24,056 bases of DNA, taken from positions 1 to 24,056 of the IMG/VR virus record IMGVR_UViG_3300018421_000204; one strand, written 5' to 3'. Every line of letters begins with the position of its first letter. Position 1 is the stretch's first letter. Under the pieces are notes generated by a model. It ran no database searches, was not told where the DNA came from, and saw only the letters and a program-made list of their open reading frames with translations. This DNA comes from a virus. This document shows, one piece after another, positions 5,016 through 23,954 of the stretch. The position numbers were made by a program, and so were the translations under genes.

Positions 5016-8000
5016 ATGGCTAAAGAAGGTTTTCTCGACAGAGATTTTAAAGTCCCCATCAACGGTGAGATCGTTGAATTTAAAAAGGGTACTTCCTTTT
5101 ATGATGTAGAGAAAGAACTTAGAAGGCGAAGCACCGGGCTGACTGGCGGGCTGGATAATGCCTTCCTTTCTGGCGTTGAATCCCTGAAGGGATCTATATC
5201 TGCTCTTCCGAGTATGATCTTCGGGGACGTGTTCGGATCTCAAGAAAGTCTAGATGAAGCCGGGGAAATATATAGAGCCACTCAGGAAGAGCAGAGAAAG
5301 CTTCAGCCGTTACCGACAACCAGAGAAGATGTTGTAGAAGCCTATGAGAAAGAAGGGATATCTGGAGCGTTACCAGAGGCTTATAGGTTTGGCGCTCAGG
5401 CCATAGGCCAGACAATACCGTACACGCTTCCCTCATTAGCTGCTTCATCTGCGGCACAAACTTCACTCGGCGTAAGAGCAGCATCTATGATTGGCAGGGC
5501 TGTTCCCATGCTCGCTAGGGCTGGTGCAGCAATACCCAACCCATATGCGAAGGTTGCTTTAGGAACCTTGGCGGGTGTTGGCACGCTCGCCCTACAGTTC
5601 CTTGGCGACAATTTGCAAAGACAATATGAGGTTGCCGAGAGCAAGGACCCTGAAGGCAGGGTAACGCCTGATGACATAACCCTATACTCTGCCGCTTTGG
5701 CTGCTGGACCGCAAGCAGCAATGGACTTCATAACGATAGCCTTAACTTCAGGACTTGGCAGGGGAGTTCAGATCGCCGCCGCCAAGTCTGTGAAAGATTC
5801 CCTCAGGTTAGCCGGTGGGACAGCCAGAGCAGCCACGTTCCCTAGCTTGAAGGAATCTGCAAAAGAAGCTTTCACAGAGTCTCTGCTTGAGTTTCCGACA
5901 GAGCTTGCACAGACCGTGCTTGAAAGGGCTCAAGCTGGAGAGTCCATTTCGTTCGAGGACGCAAATTTCGTCAGCGAGATGATGGATGTTGTAGCTGGAA
6001 CCGCTCCTGTTGTCGGCGCGTTTGGATCATTCGGAACTGCTAGAGCGTACAGATCCAACAAAAAGGCATTTGATAATTGGGAAAAGCTATCCGAAAAAGA
6101 AAAGGAAATAAGAAATGGATACGAAAAAAGAAGAGAAGATACTCTACAGAGAAGATACGAAGAATCTGTAGCGAGATACAAAGATAATCTCAACCAGTAC
6201 GAAAGCAGAGTAGCGGCAGAAGAAGCAGCTCTATCTGGACAGAGAGAGAATATCGAAAGGGAAGCACAGAGAGCCAAAGACGAGTTCCCTGTGGATGCTT
6301 CTCATGTCATAGACGCTGCCAGATCTAGAAATATAAAGACAAACGATAATGCTTTCAAATCCTTTGTGTACCGAAGTACCGGAGGAAGAACTTCAAACTT
6401 AAATGAGACTACGCAAGATGAGCGTAGTGCAATGCGTACAATTCTTTCTGGACTGACAGTTCAATCATACTTCGATGAAGAGGGGGATGGCGTAAGCCTT
6501 CCCTCGTTTACTTCAGAGGAGTTTGATTCTGCGGTAAAGGGTTTCAAGAGTGGGCAGAAGATTACTTCAGATGCAGTAAGAAAGAGATTGAACGATAGGT
6601 TCTTCAAGAAGAATCAAGAATCTCCTGTTCAGTTCGCAGACTCCGAAGGCTCTAGGATTATAGCCAACTCCATCATCGAAGAGATGAAGAGGAAGGGATA
6701 TGCGGTAGAAGAAAAGGGGTCATTGAAAGCGCGAAAGCCTAAGTATACAGAAGCTCAGTACGAAGCTTTAATCGAAGAAGCTCAGGATTCTGGTTCTATA
6801 AATCGTGGTGATTACGAAAGAGTAACCGGAAGATTCAACGAAGAGGATTTCAATTCTTTTGTTTCAGATGCGACTGTCAGAGGTGATCTATCCAAGACAA
6901 GAACTGAAGAAATGAAATCCGCAGGCGAATACGCGCCCGTATCGTTTAGATCTAAAATGGATGAATCTTCTGAAGACGCGGATATAAGACCTTTACTCAA
7001 TAAGAACGGCTCTCCGGTAATCAAAGCCGGTGCTGTGGATAAGAAAAGAATACTCAGCAGATCAACCGCTGGCAATGTTGTGACTGAAGTTATGGATTCT
7101 CAGAATGGTTTCTTCGTTGTGGACGAAGATGGAACCGTTGTGGGTGGATCTGTAAACAAAAAGGATGCAGAGAAAGAAGCAAAGTTCCTAAACCAGAACA
7201 GGGCTTTGTATAGAGTTTTCGATAAGACAACTGGTAACCCGCTGGTCGGCAAGTATTCAGACGTAAAGGCCGCAGTCGAACGATCCAAGACTGGATCTGC
7301 CGGACTCCCCGGATACATGAGAGGTACGGCCAGACTCGCGGACTATCGCGGTCAGAAGATAGAGCCTTACAAGGGTAAGTTCTCTGTCATAGACGGCGAA
7401 GGGTTCGCAGTTCGACAGTTTGTTTCACCCTATGATTATTTCAAGAACAGAGCTACGGGCGAAGTATCTAGATCTGAGAATCCGTCCAGTAACAAGAGGG
7501 TGAATGTTACCGAGATAACCTTCGCTCCGACTAGAGATATTGCTGAAGCATTAAAGGATGAATACTCGAAGTCCTTTGAGCCCGGAGAATCTAACTGGGA
7601 AGCCAACAGCGAGCGAGCAAAGGAAAGAAAGAAGCAATCACTTCAAAGAAGATTCTTAAGAGATATTGATTCGGCTGTCTCCACGGCTGTGTTACCGGCA
7701 GAACCCGAGAGACTCACTCCCGTATCTAAGAGAGCTAAGGTTCTCAAGAGCATTCCCGAAGGGAGCGTTAAGAAGGGTGAAGAGATTCTATCTATTATAG
7801 ATAGCAAGCTGAAAGAAGCGAATCTCAGCAAGGAAGTCATTGCATCTGTAAGGGAAAAGATAGGCTCTAGCGGAATCAACGAAGGAGCTTACAGCCCTAA
7901 TGACGATGGGTTCAGGCGTATAGCTATAAGCTTAGAAGCAGTCAGCAAGGCCAAGACCAACGAAGAGATGCGAGTTCTCATTGCCAGCATCATGGACCAT

Positions 8001-11000
8001 GAGATAGTCCATGCAATGAGAGACTTAGACTTATTTACCATTCAAGAATGGAATGTCTTATCCAATTCAACTTATCGGGTAAGGAACAGAGACGGTCAGA
8101 CATTCTTCGACTGGGCATCTCAGACCTATCAAGGAATGGGCGACGCTGAATATATACTAGAAGAAGCTGTGGCAGAGATGTACCGGCAGTATTACAGCGT
8201 TCCCGAGGTGAGAAGGCAGATCGCTGGTAAGCCCAGAACTCTTATCGAAAGAATAGCGATGTTCTTAGAGAAGATGTTCAACGCTTTAAGCGGAGCTGGA
8301 TTCGTCAATGCGGCTGATGTTATCAGCGGCATGAAGAAGATACAGGCAAGGGATCGGGGCGAAGTCAGAACGATACAGGGGCAGAGAAATAAACTCATGC
8401 CTGCTTTGCCTATAGAGATCCCAGAAGAAGACACGACGCAAGAAGATGTTGACGCAAGATTTTCTGTAGATGTAGATGAAAGACTTGCAAGGTTTATGGG
8501 TCGGGTTGATCCGTATGAGTATGAGGTGTCTGACTCAAATCCAAATGAGTTTATTGCAAACTTCGTTTCTGAGTCAGGAAGCAGATTTGAATTCTTTGCG
8601 TCCAACGACGGGGGCAGCATACGTTGGACCGCAGAATTTAGGGATCTAGACGATAGAGACAAGAAATCTCTACTTGGCTACGGGGACACTGGAAAGGAAG
8701 GCATCGGCGCTCTCAGGGTCTTTAAGACTGTACACAACCTACTCAGGGAATTTGTGGAGTCTAAGAACCCTGAACAGTTAAGCATCTCCGCCAGCAGACT
8801 GAACAGGAAAGGGGAGAAATCTACATCCAGAGCGAGTATCTACCGTCGCATGATGAAGGATGTGGGCAAGGACTTCGGGTACGCCGTAGAGGAAACTGTA
8901 AGAGATAAGGAATCTTTCTTTTTAGCGAAGAAGGGCGAGTACAGTTACACGGTGCAGGATGAAAGCGGCGTTGGTTCTGGCGAGAGAATGTCCGTCGCTC
9001 CGTCGCCATTTTCTGTATCGCCAGATCAAGTCAACCTTTCAGAAGAAGTAGAAATAGATGATATCAGCGATGAAAGATTATCTTCTATTCTAGATAAATC
9101 TAAAAGATTTGAATATTCTATAACGGAAAGAGAAATTGGTGGAAAAGACGGAAGCTCGTTAAGAGCAACGATACTTATTCCCGTCGGCGAAAGTTTTGAA
9201 TATGATGAAGACAAGAATATAAAAAGAAATTCTGTATTAGCAAGAATTAACTATGATGCTTTCGGGTATGACGGAGAATACTATGTAGCGTTTGAGGATG
9301 CATTAGCTTCTCCGGGGCTTCAATTTGATAGAACAGGCAAGTTAGGCAGTCGAAAAGCTAGAAGATTATTCGCTACAGTTTTTGATTTAACAGAAGAAGT
9401 TATAAAGAATAAAGACTTTAAATCTCTTTACTTCGATGCTGCGTCAGATCTTAGAGAGGAACCAGACGGAACATTCAGGCTGGTAAAGACTAGGCAAAGG
9501 CTGTACGGGGCTGGAATAAATAATCTAGCGAAGAAGTATGGATACAGGTTAATTGAAGAAAGGACCGAGGGCGGATCAGAGTTCATATTAGAAAAGACAG
9601 AAGACGGCGAGTACGAGTTTATACTAAGGGAAAATGAAGAAGAGTTTGAGGAAAGGTACGCATCGCTTGTCGATCGAGCGGTTCCATATCCTTATGAAAT
9701 GAGGCCTTCATGGGATGGCGGCCTACTCGCTACGTTCGCCACGGAAAATAATGTCACTATAACTTTAAATGCAAGTACTTACGGTGACAGCGGAGATTAC
9801 GACGTAGTTTTTAAAGATGATGAAATGGGTTACGGAGTAACTGGCTTACATGGATTAGGGTCTATCAGAATATTCAAAACTATTTTCGATATCATGGAAG
9901 AGATTATTCTTTTAAAAAACCCTAGAAGAATTTTCTTCTCCGCTGCTACTACCACACGAGAAGAAAATTCAAAACAAAAAAGATCAAGAATTAAAATATA
10001 CAGAAGAGGATCTAAGCAGCTTGGTGAGAAGTTTGGATACGAGGTAACGGAAGAGGCAGAGCGGCTTGACTCTCTTTTCACAATGCAGAAAGGTAATTAT
10101 AAATACACTTTGATTGACAGGTCTATGCCAGAATACACTTTGATTGAAAGGTCTATGCCAGAATACGAAATAAGGCAGTCCGATGACGTAGAAAACAATC
10201 GTTCTTCTGGAGACTACTATGTTTGGGAAAGATTTGAGATACCGGGTGAGTTGTCTGTAGAGATAGGGTCTTTAGGTCAGAAGCTAGAAGAGAAAATTGA
10301 TAAAGTTCTTGAAATGATTGGCTCTGACCTTTCGATACTTCCCTCTTATTTAAAACCTTTCTCTAGATCCTCCTTAGATCTATCAGCGAATAGAAGATAT
10401 GGAGATTCGTATAGACAGCTTAGGGAAGGAGAAAACGAACTTAGATTTGAAAGGAGACTTGTTGAAGCTAAGACCGGCTTGGCAATGGATAGTGAAGCCT
10501 TTGTAACAGCACGGCGAGCGGCTGTAGATATGGGAGCTGATTATCTCAGTCAAGAACAGCAGATGGAATACGTTTTCGATGAGCTTGATGCTCTTAGAGA
10601 TCGTGCGTTAAATTACAAAATAGCACTCGATAAAGCTGTAGACTATCTGATGGATGCGGATACTGCCACTACTGAAATGTGGGAGAACGAAATAAGGCAG
10701 TCAGATGAGTCAGAAAGGTTTTCAGTATCCCCTTACACTCAGCTAAATCAGCCGAGCCCGAATGCACAACGGTCTATCCCTAGAGTAAATGAATATTCTA
10801 GGATGGATTTCACAAACAGAGCTGTTAGAGACTTCAATGACGAGCGGCTAGCGAAAGCTTATCACGGGTCTAGTGAAGACTTTGACGAGTTTAGTTTGGA
10901 TTTCATAGGTACTGGTGAGGGCGCACAAGCCTTTGGGTGGGGACTTTACTTCACTGACTTGTTATCTATTGGGAGATTCTATGCGAATTCTCTAAGTAAA

Positions 11001-14000
11001 ATTACTTACAAGGGAGAAGAGTTTGGGTTTCACCCACTGGACGAGCAATTTACAACATTTAACATAGCTAATAAAGCGGTTGAGATATCGAAAATAAAAA
11101 TTTATGACAACATAGATTTCACAGATGCCCAGAGAAGCGAAGTAAGAAAAAGTATAGAAAATGAAATTGCAAGAGCATCTTTATCAGACCTTAGAAAACA
11201 AGTCAACACAGATCTTAATATTTTAAATACTGATGATTGGTATTCAAATAGATTTTTTGAAATAGCTACATCAATTAGCGACGCAGTATTTAGAGGGATT
11301 AAAAATATAGGAATCTTTTATGAATCTGAAAAAGTAAAAGATAATGCTGCTAGGCTTGTTAGCGAAGAGTTTGTTAATGCTATGAATTCTATATCAAAAG
11401 ATGATTTTAATATAGAATCTCAACTTTACGAAGTTGAAATACCTGAAAAAGAAGACCTATTTGATTACAACGGCTCTATGAGAGACCAGAGCCCGAAGGT
11501 TGTGGAAGCTTTCAGGAAGGCTTTTGAATCTGAAAATATGTCCGAGGAGTTTAATGAACTCTACGGAGAGGACGGAGACGCATTAGCCGTTGAATTTTAC
11601 GACGAGCTTTCATTCCTTGGGCAGAGAGAGCAGTACGCTTCAGAGCTTTTGAATAAGTACGGAATCAAGGGGCATTACTATGATGCCGCCTCACTAACGC
11701 CGGGTTACGATCCGAAAGCAAAGAACTACGTCATCTACGAAGACAAAGCCATATCAATAGTTAAGAAACTCTACGCTAAAAAGCGTCCTGCTTTCGAGTC
11801 TGACGAAAGACTTAGCATCAGATCTGCGTCGATAGCAGACGGAAATACAAAGCCTGAAAGATTATCTGCTTCAAATAAAAATAGAATCGTCAGGACGGAG
11901 CCGAGAGTAGATAGAAGTATTGAACAAATACTCAACACTCTTTACGCAAAGCCGAATGTTCAAGAGTCTTTCTTTGACAAGATAAAGTCCATCATATTTG
12001 ATGATGAAAAAAGAAAAGAATACATATCTAGATTCAGGTCTGCATTCCTAGATAAATATGATTACATAGCTAAAGTAAATAAGAAAGCATCTTTACGCAA
12101 GAAAGATGAGAGAGAGCTACTCGCAAGCACGAATGCTCATTCCCTATGGCTCTTAGCTGACAGATCCAACAGTCTCACTTCAGCAATGATAAACAATGGA
12201 GCCGTAGTTTTAAGAGGCGGGATCGCAAGAATAGATCCGACAAAAAAGAGTTTAACGCAGGCTCTTCAGCCACTGTTTGAATCTAATGAATATTTGTATA
12301 GAGAGTGGGCGACTTGGATGGTCGCAAACAGATCTACAAATATCATGAGATCAGGAAGGCTTACTCCTCTGTCACAAGAAGAAGTGAACAGAGTTAATGA
12401 CTATGTAAATAGCAGCGGGAATCTACAGCTCTTCGAGAGCGTGAGAAGAGATTACGAAGAATGGAATGGAAGCCTAGTCGAGTTCTTGAAAGACACAGGC
12501 GTAATCAACGAAGAACTCGCGAGAGTATTTGTTAAGTACGCTGACTACATTCCCTTCTACAGAAACTTAGATCTGGATGGTACCGGGGAAGAAGGCGTAA
12601 GGCCGGAGATATTCAAGCAGATTCTTCAGGATGAAGGAATTGATCTCACACTGGGAAGAGTGAGAAGGCTAAAGAGTTTATTCCCTAGCCTTATAGACAA
12701 TAAAGTACCCAGAAGGATGAAGGGTGGAGAGCAGCAGCTAGATGATCCCCTCACGGGCATCATGAAAAACCTAAGCGCATCAATAACTGCTGGCATGAAG
12801 AATCTTGCAGCTCAGCAGACCATGAAAGATGCTGTCGATGCAGGGATCGCAACAGAAGTATTTGCGGATGAGAATGGATATGTTGATCCCGCATACTACA
12901 CAGTGAGGGTCAACGGAGAAGAGAGATACTTTGATGTTACTGATGATAAGTTGGTTGCTGCGATAGAGGGATTTACAAGGCCGAACGTATCCATATCCCC
13001 GTTCTTCGCTAAGCCAGCTTCTTGGTTGCGAGAGTCCGTAGCAAGAAGTCCTATGTTTATATTCAGGAACTTGTTCAGGGATTCAGTATCTTCTTATGTT
13101 ACATCCGGTGTGGAAATGAAACCAGTAATAGACACTATGAATAAATTCATTGGTGATCTATCTGGCGACAGAACACAGACCTACTCAGTACTTGAAAATG
13201 CTGGGATCGTAGGCGGGTACGATTATGTGTTCGAGCCTAAGAAGTTTGAAGAAAACTTCAGAAAGAAGATGCGTAAGCAGGGAATGACCATGAAGAAGGG
13301 GAGTGTTGATTCTGTCACTCCCATCTTCTCAAGAATATGGGATTCGCTGGGTGAAGCATCTCAAGTTTCCGATGCTGCGACAAGGCAAGTAGTCTATGAG
13401 GACACTCTACAGAGACTGCTCAACAAGGGCGTTGGAAGAGCCGAGGCCGAAGCCGAAGCAATATTTCAGGCTATGGAAGTTCTGAACTTCACCAGAAAGG
13501 GAAACAATGCTTTCCTAAATACCATACTGCCAACCCTTCCGTTCTTCAACGCGAGAATGCAAGGCTTGGACGTGATATACAGGTCTTTAACTGGAGAGTA
13601 TTCAGCTAACAGGTTGGGTAAGGAAGAAGCTCAAGCATCGTTCTTGAGAAGGGGACTGTTTCTGGCAGCTATGACTGTCCTGTATACATCCCTATCCATA
13701 GACGATGAAGAATACAAGGGCGCGACAGACGCGGAAAGAGATGACAACTGGCTCATTACGCTACCCGGTCAAACAACTTTAAAGATACCCATCCCCTTTG
13801 AAGTTGGTCTTATATTCAAGGTAATTCCAGAGCATATAACTAGAGCCATACTACAAGATGAGTCGCTTAGGGAAGCTGGGAATTCCGTAACTAGAGGAAT
13901 CGTCAACTCGCTTGAGCTTCCGCTGACTGGACCGCAAGCGGTGGCTCCGATATTTGAAGTCTTGGTTAATAAGAGTTGGTTTACCGGCAAGCCTATCGTT

Positions 14001-14612
14001 CCTGAGTATATGCAAGATAGGCCGAAAGAACTTCAAGCTAAATATTATACCAGCGAGTTCGCAAAGCAGCTTTCATACCTGAGCCCAGTACCGCTTAGCC
14101 CCCTTTCTGTCGAGCATGTTCTAGAAGGATATGCTGGGACTATGGGTAGCTACATGCTTGGCTTACTCGATTCAGTAACGTCTTTGGTTAGCGGAAAGCC
14201 GATCATGATGAATTGGAGGCAGGATGAAATCCCGATCGTCGGTGCGATATTCCAAAGTGCCAACGCATCAGAAGGGCAGACGCAAAGATGGAATGATTTC
14301 TTCTTCTCTGTCAGGGGAATTGTTTCAGGGCTCAGAGATCTAGAAAAAGAAGATCCCGAAAGAGCTATGGAAATGAGAGAGAAATACGCTGATGTTCTGT
14401 CCATAAAGAGTTCTCTTGAAAGCATTCAAACAGATCTTAATGAACTAAGGTCTATGAAGACTAGGGTTTTCCTAGATAAGAATATGGATGATTCCCGAAA
14501 AAGAGATATAATTGATGGTATAGATAATAGAATAAAGCAGATTCTTAGTAACACGCAGGAGTTTACTAAAATGATGCCCGGACCTATACCGTTCTTTAGG
14601 GGAATAAACTGA
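5016..14612 (+). CDS. Giant polyvalent virion protein: metallopeptidase, triplicated module, ART domain
   Basis: A 3198-residue protein. The ATG follows the previous stop by one base, with only a weak ribosome site, so coupling is likely. Seen in order: a hydrophobic Ala/Gly-rich region (about 125-200) fit for membrane insertion; a charged coiled coil (about 348-430); a HEIVHAM zinc-peptidase motif (H995, E996, H999) with a later EEAVAE that can supply the third ligand (about 1049-1054); three copies of a diverged module (about 1159-1318, 1354-1541, 1542-1715); an ADP-ribosyltransferase-like domain (about 1945-2260) with YHGS around H1950, GTGEGAQAFGWGLYF, LYEVEIP and a closing NYVIYED; and a long C-terminus with SPMFIFRNLFRDS (about 2678), resembling the LPD38 type. 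Family knowledge: phage polyvalent proteins carry such enzymes into the cell with the DNA. No T7-like RNA polymerase motifs were found, so this is not an N4-type virion polymerase. Substrates of the peptidase and ART domains are unknown. Confidence 0.85.
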   Translation: MAKEGFLDRDFKVPINGEIVEFKKGTSFYDVEKELRRRSTGLTGGLDNAFLSGVESLKGSISALPSMIFGDVFGSQESLDEAGEIYRATQEEQRKLQPLPTTREDVVEAYEKEGISGALPEAYRFGAQAIGQTIPYTLPSLAASSAAQTSLGVRAASMIGRAVPMLARAGAAIPNPYAKVALGTLAGVGTLALQFLGDNLQRQYEVAESKDPEGRVTPDDITLYSAALAAGPQAAMDFITIALTSGLGRGVQIAAAKSVKDSLRLAGGTARAATFPSLKESAKEAFTESLLEFPTELAQTVLERAQAGESISFEDANFVSEMMDVVAGTAPVVGAFGSFGTARAYRSNKKAFDNWEKLSEKEKEIRNGYEKRREDTLQRRYEESVARYKDNLNQYESRVAAEEAALSGQRENIEREAQRAKDEFPVDASHVIDAARSRNIKTNDNAFKSFVYRSTGGRTSNLNETTQDERSAMRTILSGLTVQSYFDEEGDGVSLPSFTSEEFDSAVKGFKSGQKITSDAVRKRLNDRFFKKNQESPVQFADSEGSRIIANSIIEEMKRKGYAVEEKGSLKARKPKYTEAQYEALIEEAQDSGSINRGDYERVTGRFNEEDFNSFVSDATVRGDLSKTRTEEMKSAGEYAPVSFRSKMDESSEDADIRPLLNKNGSPVIKAGAVDKKRILSRSTAGNVVTEVMDSQNGFFVVDEDGTVVGGSVNKKDAEKEAKFLNQNRALYRVFDKTTGNPLVGKYSDVKAAVERSKTGSAGLPGYMRGTARLADYRGQKIEPYKGKFSVIDGEGFAVRQFVSPYDYFKNRATGEVSRSENPSSNKRVNVTEITFAPTRDIAEALKDEYSKSFEPGESNWEANSERAKERKKQSLQRRFLRDIDSAVSTAVLPAEPERLTPVSKRAKVLKSIPEGSVKKGEEILSIIDSKLKEANLSKEVIASVREKIGSSGINEGAYSPNDDGFRRIAISLEAVSKAKTNEEMRVLIASIMDHEIVHAMRDLDLFTIQEWNVLSNSTYRVRNRDGQTFFDWASQTYQGMGDAEYILEEAVAEMYRQYYSVPEVRRQIAGKPRTLIERIAMFLEKMFNALSGAGFVNAADVISGMKKIQARDRGEVRTIQGQRNKLMPALPIEIPEEDTTQEDVDARFSVDVDERLARFMGRVDPYEYEVSDSNPNEFIANFVSESGSRFEFFASNDGGSIRWTAEFRDLDDRDKKSLLGYGDTGKEGIGALRVFKTVHNLLREFVESKNPEQLSISASRLNRKGEKSTSRASIYRRMMKDVGKDFGYAVEETVRDKESFFLAKKGEYSYTVQDESGVGSGERMSVAPSPFSVSPDQVNLSEEVEIDDISDERLSSILDKSKRFEYSITEREIGGKDGSSLRATILIPVGESFEYDEDKNIKRNSVLARINYDAFGYDGEYYVAFEDALASPGLQFDRTGKLGSRKARRLFATVFDLTEEVIKNKDFKSLYFDAASDLREEPDGTFRLVKTRQRLYGAGINNLAKKYGYRLIEERTEGGSEFILEKTEDGEYEFILRENEEEFEERYASLVDRAVPYPYEMRPSWDGGLLATFATENNVTITLNASTYGDSGDYDVVFKDDEMGYGVTGLHGLGSIRIFKTIFDIMEEIILLKNPRRIFFSAATTTREENSKQKRSRIKIYRRGSKQLGEKFGYEVTEEAERLDSLFTMQKGNYKYTLIDRSMPEYTLIERSMPEYEIRQSDDVENNRSSGDYYVWERFEIPGELSVEIGSLGQKLEEKIDKVLEMIGSDLSILPSYLKPFSRSSLDLSANRRYGDSYRQLREGENELRFERRLVEAKTGLAMDSEAFVTARRAAVDMGADYLSQEQQMEYVFDELDALRDRALNYKIALDKAVDYLMDADTATTEMWENEIRQSDESERFSVSPYTQLNQPSPNAQRSIPRVNEYSRMDFTNRAVRDFNDERLAKAYHGSSEDFDEFSLDFIGTGEGAQAFGWGLYFTDLLSIGRFYANSLSKITYKGEEFGFHPLDEQFTTFNIANKAVEISKIKIYDNIDFTDAQRSEVRKSIENEIARASLSDLRKQVNTDLNILNTDDWYSNRFFEIATSISDAVFRGIKNIGIFYESEKVKDNAARLVSEEFVNAMNSISKDDFNIESQLYEVEIPEKEDLFDYNGSMRDQSPKVVEAFRKAFESENMSEEFNELYGEDGDALAVEFYDELSFLGQREQYASELLNKYGIKGHYYDAASLTPGYDPKAKNYVIYEDKAISIVKKLYAKKRPAFESDERLSIRSASIADGNTKPERLSASNKNRIVRTEPRVDRSIEQILNTLYAKPNVQESFFDKIKSIIFDDEKRKEYISRFRSAFLDKYDYIAKVNKKASLRKKDERELLASTNAHSLWLLADRSNSLTSAMINNGAVVLRGGIARIDPTKKSLTQALQPLFESNEYLYREWATWMVANRSTNIMRSGRLTPLSQEEVNRVNDYVNSSGNLQLFESVRRDYEEWNGSLVEFLKDTGVINEELARVFVKYADYIPFYRNLDLDGTGEEGVRPEIFKQILQDEGIDLTLGRVRRLKSLFPSLIDNKVPRRMKGGEQQLDDPLTGIMKNLSASITAGMKNLAAQQTMKDAVDAGIATEVFADENGYVDPAYYTVRVNGEERYFDVTDDKLVAAIEGFTRPNVSISPFFAKPASWLRESVARSPMFIFRNLFRDSVSSYVTSGVEMKPVIDTMNKFIGDLSGDRTQTYSVLENAGIVGGYDYVFEPKKFEENFRKKMRKQGMTMKKGSVDSVTPIFSRIWDSLGEASQVSDAATRQVVYEDTLQRLLNKGVGRAEAEAEAIFQAMEVLNFTRKGNNAFLNTILPTLPFFNARMQGLDVIYRSLTGEYSANRLGKEEAQASFLRRGLFLAAMTVLYTSLSIDDEEYKGATDAERDDNWLITLPGQTTLKIPIPFEVGLIFKVIPEHITRAILQDESLREAGNSVTRGIVNSLELPLTGPQAVAPIFEVLVNKSWFTGKPIVPEYMQDRPKELQAKYYTSEFAKQLSYLSPVPLSPLSVEHVLEGYAGTMGSYMLGLLDSVTSLVSGKPIMMNWRQDEIPIVGAIFQSANASEGQTQRWNDFFFSVRGIVSGLRDLEKEDPERAMEMREKYADVLSIKSSLESIQTDLNELRSMKTRVFLDKNMDDSRKRDIIDGIDNRIKQILSNTQEFTKMMPGPIPFFRGIN
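10104..10163 (+). repeat. Perfect-length 30-bp tandem duplication
   Basis: Two adjacent 30-bp units (10104-10133 and 10134-10163) differ at one base. They encode YTLIDRSMPE and YTLIERSMPE at the end of the third copy of the giant protein's repeated module. The near identity points to a recent duplication. Confidence 0.9.
10165..10702 (+). repeat. 16-bp exact direct repeats flanking a helical segment
   Basis: The same 16 bases occur at 10165-10180 and 10687-10702, 522 bp (174 codons) apart in the same frame; both encode the peptide EIRQSD. They bracket a helix-rich segment between the third repeated module and the ART-like domain, as expected if this segment was duplicated from, or inserted through, a short homology. 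Confidence 0.8.
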
Positions 14613-14935
14613 TGGCGATTAGGACTAAGCACGGAGTTTCTATCAACGGCATAAAGCCTGAGCTTGTGCTAGGTATAGATATAGCTCATGGATACTTTAA
14701 CAGTATGGGAATAAACGAGATGGTTCTAACGTCCATTGTTGACGGGAAGCATTCTCACGGTTCCCTTCATTATATTGGGTATGCTGCTGATATAAGGATA
14801 TGGGCAATAGAATCTAAAGGTTTAGCTGAGTTCACAGAGGGCTTAGCTGAAGAACTTGGCAGCGAGTTCGATGTTGTACTTGAGAAAGATCATATACACA
14901 TAGAGTTCCAGCCAAAGAATAGAGGTGTGAGATAA
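14612..14935 (+). CDS. Endolysin, M15-family peptidase
   Basis: A 107-residue protein predicted to cut peptide cross-links of the cell wall at lysis. The zinc-site pattern of M15 peptidases is visible: HYIGYAAD gives H53 and D60 (HxxGxAxD), and EKDHIHIEF near the C-terminus gives the second histidine (H94 or H96). The length is that of a single catalytic domain, without a separate wall-binding domain or signal peptide, so release through a holin is expected. The ATG overlaps the stop of the giant gene by one base and has a GGGGA-type ribosome site. It is followed directly by a small membrane protein and a spanin pair, which supports the lysis role. Confidence 0.85.
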   Translation: MAIRTKHGVSINGIKPELVLGIDIAHGYFNSMGINEMVLTSIVDGKHSHGSLHYIGYAADIRIWAIESKGLAEFTEGLAEELGSEFDVVLEKDHIHIEFQPKNRGVR

Positions 14936-15582: not shown

Positions 15583-16401
15583 ATGAAGCCACCCCCTCCG
15601 TACAAAAGAAACGACAGAAAGCCTAAGCTCGGCAAGAAAATACTGGTCATACCAGACAGTCACGCAAAGCCGGGTATACCAAATCATAGATACGAATGGT
15701 TAGGCAGGATGGTCGTTGATATAAAGCCTGACTACGTAGTCAACCTCGGCGATTTGTGGGACATGCACTCGCTGAACTCCTTTGAGAAACCCGGAAGCAA
15801 GTCTTTCAATGGAGCGTCTTACTGGAAAGATATAGATGTTGGACTTGATGGGATGCTCAGGTTCCACAACCAGATAGATGAATACAACAAAGGAACTAAA
15901 GAAGAAAATAAATACAATCCAGAGCTTGTGTTCTGCATGGGTAACCATGAAAACAGAATATCGAAGTTCATTGATTCAGAGCCTAGATTTGAGGAGATTA
16001 TATCCACAAAAGATCTAAGGTTATCTGATCTGGGATGGGAAGAGGTTCCATTTCTTGTACCTAAAAAGATACATGGATGCTCATTCGCGCATTACTTCAC
16101 GTCTGGCGTTATGGGCAGGCCGATATCTGGACTTCATCAGGCAGCTAGTCTGCTGACTAAGCAATTTGGGACTTGCATACAGGGCCATACCCATACATAT
16201 GACCACTCCGTAAGGACGGACAGCATGGGTAAAAGCCTACATGGCCTAGTGGCTGGGTGTTACTTTGAACACTCAGAGGCTTGGGCTGGTCCGGCTAATC
16301 AGATGTGGAGAAGAGGATTGTCTGTACTGCATAACGTAAAGTCAGGTGACTTCGATGTCGAATGGATCGGAATGGAAAGGATCAAGGCGAAGTATTCGTA
16401 A
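15583..16401 (+). CDS. Calcineurin-like metallophosphoesterase
   Basis: A 272-residue phosphoesterase. All the family's metal-binding motifs are visible: IPDSH (D25, H27), NLGDLWD (D57), MGNHEN (N121, H122), a histidine in FAHYF (H170) and QGHTHTYD (H202, H204). The family hydrolyses phosphomono- or diesters with a two-metal centre; the substrate here is unknown, with nucleic acid or nucleotides possible. The start at 15583 is preferred because AGGAGGGGG lies nine bases upstream. An in-frame ATG at 15523 would add 20 residues but follows directly on the terminator's T-run without a ribosome site. No promoter is obvious between the terminator and this gene. Confidence 0.85.
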   Translation: MKPPPPYKRNDRKPKLGKKILVIPDSHAKPGIPNHRYEWLGRMVVDIKPDYVVNLGDLWDMHSLNSFEKPGSKSFNGASYWKDIDVGLDGMLRFHNQIDEYNKGTKEENKYNPELVFCMGNHENRISKFIDSEPRFEEIISTKDLRLSDLGWEEVPFLVPKKIHGCSFAHYFTSGVMGRPISGLHQAASLLTKQFGTCIQGHTHTYDHSVRTDSMGKSLHGLVAGCYFEHSEAWAGPANQMWRRGLSVLHNVKSGDFDVEWIGMERIKAKYS

Positions 16402-16753
16402 ACAGATACCCAAGAGAGATAGGTTGCACCAGATACATAAATGGCTAATAAATGAGTACGGTCGAAAAACTCGTTTGAGGGTCGAAAAACTACCCAAATC
16501 CGAAAAGGATTGCTTGGGTTATGTCGAGCTTGGAAGTGGTACTCCGCTCATTAGAGTCAGCAAGTTCTTATCTAGAAGTGAATCTATATCCGTATTGATA
16601 CATGAATACTGCCATGTGATTTCGCACTACAAACACGGACCACACTGGAAAAGAAAATATGGTGGTCATGATAAAAACTTCTATTCAATATTGTACGAAG
16701 TAGAGAACAGGTATTTTTATGAAGGTGGAAATGTTGAGAGCGGAGATTTCTAA
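16355..16753 (+). CDS. SprT-like zinc metalloprotein
   Basis: A 132-residue protein with IHEYCHVISH, an HExxH zinc motif (H83, E84, H87). This is followed by HGPHWKRKYGGHDKNF, where a further histidine (H105 is the best candidate) can be the third ligand, as in SprT/WSS1-type small metallopeptidases. The N-terminus is basic. The ATG at 16355 lies inside the phosphoesterase gene in another frame and has AGGTGA five bases upstream; a GTG at 16346 lies within that ribosome site and is unlikely. Cellular SprT-like enzymes act on DNA-protein crosslinks; that role is not shown for this phage protein. Confidence 0.7.
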   Translation: MSNGSEWKGSRRSIRKQIPKRDRLHQIHKWLINEYGRKTRLRVEKLPKSEKDCLGYVELGSGTPLIRVSKFLSRSESISVLIHEYCHVISHYKHGPHWKRKYGGHDKNFYSILYEVENRYFYEGGNVESGDF

Positions 16754-16935: not shown

Positions 16936-17012
16936 TGGTAGGCTCGGCGGGACTCGAACCCGCGACCACCGCTTTATAAGAACGGCACTCTAACCGACTG
17001 AGTTACGAGCCC
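16936..17012 (-). tRNA. tRNA-Ile, anticodon UAU (reads AUA)
   Basis: A full cloverleaf can be drawn. The acceptor arm is GGGCTCG with CGAGCCT. The D arm is ACTC/GAGT, the anticodon arm CCGTT/AGCGG with loop CTTATAA, and the T arm GCGGG/CCCGC with TTCGAGT. A73 and an encoded CCA are present. The loop gives anticodon UAU. The 1-72 pair is G-U rather than a Watson-Crick pair. The gene lies at the downstream end of the minus-strand recombination operon. AUA codons are frequent in the phage genes here, which fits a codon-supply role. Confidence 0.93.
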
Positions 17013-23867: not shown

Positions 23868-23954
23868 TGGTGCCGGGTGCGGGACTCGAACCCGCAAGAC
23901 CTCTCGGTCGGCAGATTTTAAGTCTGCTGTGTATACCAATTCCACCAACCCGGC
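23868..23954 (-). tRNA. tRNA-Leu, anticodon UAA (reads UUA)
   Basis: A class II cloverleaf can be drawn. The acceptor arm is GCCGGGT/ACCCGGC, fully paired. The anticodon arm is GCAGA/TCTGC with loop CTTAAAA, giving anticodon UAA. A long variable arm (CGACCGAGAGGTCTT) and a T arm GCGGG/CCCGC with TTCGAGT follow. A73 and an encoded CCA are present. All pairs are normal, so it looks functional. Its first base is the last base of the preceding stop codon. Confidence 0.95.

Follow-up and report, generated by a model that had tools for sequence, protein, structure and literature searches.

Whether polyvalent proteins are processed, and where, has been a question standing since their first description. 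In that description (Iyer et al. 2017, PMC5512222), autoprocessing of these proteins by their metallopeptidase, before or after injection, was already proposed, and the virion RNA polymerase of N4 is reported to have such a metallopeptidase domain, yet to be packaged uncut. The polyvalent proteins presented there resemble the one studied here in being giant and in having metallopeptidase, GNAT-like, ART-like and LPD38 parts. For a far relative, JC1 gp69, presence in the virion is supported by mass spectrometry, with 51 unique peptides (PMC9144972).

The DNA that we analysed, referred to as the window, is 24,056 nucleotides long (positions 1 to 24,056 of IMG/VR record IMGVR_UViG_3300018421_000204), and no phage record was close to it at the DNA level. 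An open frame on the plus strand (5016..14612), which also carries all the features described below unless noted, encodes a giant protein of 3198 residues. With an LPD38 domain at residues 2897-3075 (13704..14240) scoring 117.8 bits against a Pfam cut-off of 27, it is an LPD38 polyvalent protein. A profile of relatives and conserved residues identified a zincin-like metallopeptidase domain at residues 954-1124 (7875..8387), with HEIVH at 995-999 and a conserved Glu downstream; H56, E57, H60, E110 and E111 (alignment A4 numbering) are conserved in the 40-row alignment A4. Self-alignment revealed three GNAT-like modules, at residues ~1155-1318 (8478..8969; also phrog_16075), ~1353-1540 (9072..9635) and ~1546-1700 (9651..10115; also phrog_27801), for which there was no Pfam match. 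A model of the metalloprotease and module gave no significant PDB match with Foldseek, which did not confirm the metallopeptidase fold; the best matches, which are weak (E 0.007-0.1), include GNAT acetyltransferases. The ART-like domain (residues ~1944-2255; 10845..11780) scored 20.2 bits for ART-PolyVal, below the Pfam cut-off of 31.2. It has relatives in 80 loci, some of which score above that cut-off, and its model gave no significant PDB match with Foldseek. The giant proteins of two IMG/VR contigs with different identifiers (L001 and L002) match that of the window at 100% identity. Elsewhere in the window, we noticed small open frames at 14612-14935 and 16346-16753 which on visual inspection look like an M15-type peptidase and a SprT-like metallopeptidase, and minus-strand tRNA genes for Ile (tat; 16936-17012) and Leu (taa; 23868-23954).

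The first-pass annotation of the window had pointed out five R-(F/M/L)-S-(V/I/A) peptides at domain borders of the giant protein, and had proposed that they are interdomain linkers that may be cut, possibly by its HEIVH peptidase, so that separate effectors come free once the protein has been ejected. All five are present, namely RFSV1148 (8457..8468), RMSV1324 (8985..8996), RFSV1901 (10716..10727), RLSI2265 (11808..11819) and RLSA2282 (11859..11870), each but the first preceded by Glu as had been claimed, and the protein contains R[FML]S[VIA] at no other position. Their placement at domain borders also held: the metallopeptidase ends 24 residues ahead of RFSV1148, RMSV1324 comes after the first of the three repeated modules, RFSV1901 precedes the ART-like domain, and RLSI2265 and RLSA2282 come after it. 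Shuffling of the protein gave an expectation of 0.57 for R[FML]S[VIA] (5 observed, p ~2e-4) and of 0.05 for ER[FML]S[VIA] (4 observed), values that are optimistic because the motif was picked after being seen. As it had been picked by eye, independent tests were needed. For the window protein taken by itself, the five sites were not significantly close to alignment breakpoints, and the strength of the case rests on the relatives. Modules 2 and 3 have no canonical site at their borders (~1540 and 1700-1730). We also observed, at residues ~1700-1724 and 1893-1898, a tandem IDRSMPEYTLIERSMPEY together with EIRQSD, the latter occurring twice; these are possibly degenerate or alternative border peptides.

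In AlphaFold2 models covering residues 940-1345 and 1881-2300, each of the five sites falls in a stretch where pLDDT is below 50, with the ART-like and metalloprotease cores beside them above 90. About 35% of the modelled residues are equally low, so that five out of five would be expected by chance in ~0.5% of cases, if the sites are independent. The low values suggest that the sites lie in flexible linkers, and in these predictions none of them falls inside a folded core.

Close relatives provided a direct view of the borders. Outside two differing stretches, the proteins of L003 and L004 (IMG/VR) are ~95-97% identical to that of the window. Protein and DNA comparison showed that window residues 1151-1900, running from RFSV1148 to RFSV1901 (8466..10727, right end approximate), are replaced in both by unrelated domains. 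At the left breakpoint, DNA identity between the window and L003/L004 ends directly past the R-F-S codons. At the right breakpoint, both versions have ERFS, encoded by differing codons, and homology returns a few residues downstream. In the replacement cassette there is an HSP90-like ATPase domain (Pfam HATPase), along with another HExxH site, which is HEASH in the L003 cassette (residues ~1150-1840); the window and L003 are two versions of one chassis, with quite different cargo. The ART-like domain partly differs among these relatives too, with the RLSI2265 and RLSA2282 sites retained, the latter as RLSS in L004. L105 has a module that shares 34% identity with GNAT-like module 1, and here again ERFS and ERLSA flank it.

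We then turned to more distant proteins. A profile search with the LPD38 region led to 79 loci and, after dereplication and with the window and its close relatives left out, to a family set of 26 proteins. In this set, [RK][FYLM]S[LVIA][RK] occurred 44 times against 3.7 expected, with preferences for Tyr/Phe at position 2, Ser at 3, Leu at 4 and Arg at 5, and the reversed pattern occurred near its expected count. Enrichment at domain borders in homologues was the check that the first-pass annotation had called for, and the frequency is far from chance level. The sites lie a median of 2 residues from alignment breakpoints, compared with 15 for random positions and control peptides, where breakpoints are BLAST alignment ends that a shared motif can extend by a few residues and the proteins are partly dependent on one another. 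Where the SLR form is missing, most proteins carry [FY]SR at their borders (17 sites, median 3 residues to breakpoints versus 25). The recurring theme is [KR]-x-S-L-[RK], [FY]-S-R or R-F-S-V, each phage having its own version. A de novo search for peptides recurring at breakpoints likewise returned one motif per phage: KLSLR in L167, RYSLR in L155, KASLR in L138, KPSLR in L126, RASRR in L134, KFSRK in L166 and FSIG in L090. These de novo and breakpoint-based searches resolved the low signal of a pooled RFS/RYS search among ART-bearing and named-phage giant proteins, in which enrichment was little because each lineage has its own motif. In named-phage LPD38 proteins without a metalloprotease-profile match, the union motif was found 14 times against 8.0 expected, mostly in BcepIL02.

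In still more distant giant proteins, FSIG, LFAK, KFSK and SKQS take the same border role, and some of them flank the same ART domain. The giant proteins of L090, L091, L081, L030, L026 and L063 belong to other lineages, with repeated border peptides of their own (FSIG, LFAK, KFSK, SKQS, KSK). The Pfam ART domain lies between RYSLR2110 and RYSLR2279 in L131 (2134-2270), and between KFSK1266 and RFSK1463 in L030 (1317-1455). Self-similarity of the 9 residues directly ahead of the ART domain was not generally significant. Taken with the cassette breakpoints and the low-confidence linkers, the border enrichment strongly supports the claim of interdomain linkers, and the role is well supported as a general one.

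Codons differ among motif copies of one gene, and it is therefore the peptide, not the DNA, that is kept. Copies in one protein agree at position 2, whereas different proteins differ there, with 67 identical pairs against 25.5 expected and a maximum of 52 in 2000 shuffles. The motif is also confined to the giant protein: on 14 contigs, which are incomplete, a phage's motif had 81 occurrences in giant proteins, and the other ORFs together had 3, close to chance (about 2.7 expected), one of the three being in a cut piece of the giant protein. Within the giant proteins, an HExxH metalloprotease is present in 24 of the 26 relatives, and the other two are short open frames, which contig ends have probably cut. 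Motif density per 1000 residues is 2.8 between the metalloprotease and LPD38, 0.49 before this region and 0.39 after it, and the first motif is often within ~40 residues of the metalloprotease. Ruegeria phage 45A6 has HESIH followed by LPD38; no cargo domain was recognised between them, and no border motif of the SLR, FSR or RFSV type was seen.

The RxS sites mark module borders and are best read as the form that a lineage-specific border motif between exchangeable cargo domains of metalloprotease/LPD38 polyvalent proteins takes in the window phage. We infer that they are also where the protein is cut by its own zincin metallopeptidase, located just ahead of the first site; in our estimation this explanation is as probable as it is not. 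Cleavage by this enzyme would be the best mechanism. The injected giant protein would act as a polyprotein from which the GNAT-like module, a middle fragment of larger size and the ART-like effector are released; the metalloprotease piece at the N-terminus and the LPD38 piece at the C-terminus would be left over. A new cassette would work only when flanked by the resident motif, a requirement that would explain both the breakpoints at the motif and the single version in each phage. A lineage-specific peptide found in one protein only, at cargo borders and starting beside a protease, is the expected look of a self-cleaving polyprotein, and the motif does recur at borders between putative products. 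In favour of this explanation, the metalloprotease retains HExxH and sits directly ahead of the motif-bordered region. Against it, not every module border carries a site, the theme is more variable than most single-protease sites, the L030 open frame has a border motif with no HExxH found, and the N4 virion RNA polymerase is packaged uncut despite such a domain. In addition, motif class follows metalloprotease similarity and LPD38 similarity to the same degree and does not single out the cutting agent; a partial correlation to tie it to the metalloprotease failed through collinearity.

The motif may instead be a docking or packing peptide that stays uncut, each copy binding a common partner so that every module is loaded into the virion and threaded out of it. 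That partner may be the LPD38 region, a metalloprotease domain that serves as a binder, or a protein of the capsid or tail. A repeated, linker-borne, lineage-specific peptide fits a binding motif equally well, and PMC5512222 gives the N4 protein as packaged uncut though its packaging needs the metalloprotease region. Docking alone, however, leaves unexplained the strict two-sided placement at cassette borders and the adjacency to a conserved protease domain, and we regard it as rather unlikely. Cutting in trans, by a prohead protease at assembly or a host protease after entry, is to be considered as well, since ejection proteins of SPN3US are described as cut by prohead proteases (PMC10052503) and processing is also believed to occur in DarA of P1 (PMC9024508). 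A general phage protease should have further substrates among other virion proteins, but the same motif was not enriched in the other ORFs of the 14 incomplete contigs, and one motif per phage is not an obvious outcome of a host protease. Cutting in trans also appears rather unlikely.

Breakpoints that coincide with the motif could in principle reflect domain shuffling, the motif being a short DNA homology used in recombination, with no function in the protein. The differing codons of copies in one gene speak against this, as does the ART domain, whose bordering motifs change from protein to protein, showing that the motif goes with the chassis rather than the cassette; a by-product of shuffling is highly improbable. 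Chance tetrapeptides in a long protein containing Arg and Ser would agree with a motif picked after reading and with the non-significant breakpoint test in the window, but are refuted by the independent relatives, where the motif is strongly enriched and placed at borders, and we give this reading almost no credence.

If cleavage by the protein's own metallopeptidase is correct, effectors would be swapped as cassettes and freed after entry. That tailed phages have a true polyprotein strategy, with a protease, swappable effectors, a private cleavage motif and release after entry, is a conclusion that we advance tentatively, considering it slightly short of an even prospect. A defined motif provides exact, testable candidate cut sites and a rule by which these very long proteins can be parsed into effectors with no need of domain databases, and the stretches between motifs are a route to unknown effectors. 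In the literature searched, with few subscription journals and no bioRxiv preprints, we found no paper describing the border motif, and as far as that literature shows it appears to be new, the idea of autoprocessing itself being prior art.

Compared with known systems, the window lineage has a border motif that is not mentioned in the available part of Iyer et al. 2017 (PMC5512222); the word 'linker' is absent from the text. The DarB-like/LPD38 giant virion proteins of Bcep22-like phages (BcepIL02 gp70 and JC1 gp69; PMC9144972) share a C-terminal LPD38 with the window protein, but are far relatives only, having a methylase-helicase core and no metalloprotease-profile match. In gp70 of the isolated phage BcepIL02 (L218), FSV occurs at three borders (KFSV3307, AFSV3519 and RFSV3750), around LPD3 and an HEAFH site; these copies lie at residues 3307-3754, in the stretch that separates the helicase part from the LPD38 part. 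Proteins matured by prohead proteases in T4 and SPN3US are likewise injected virion proteins cut at short motifs. In those phages one phage protease acts on many substrates, whereas in the window lineage the motif is confined to one protein, which bears a protease domain of its own.
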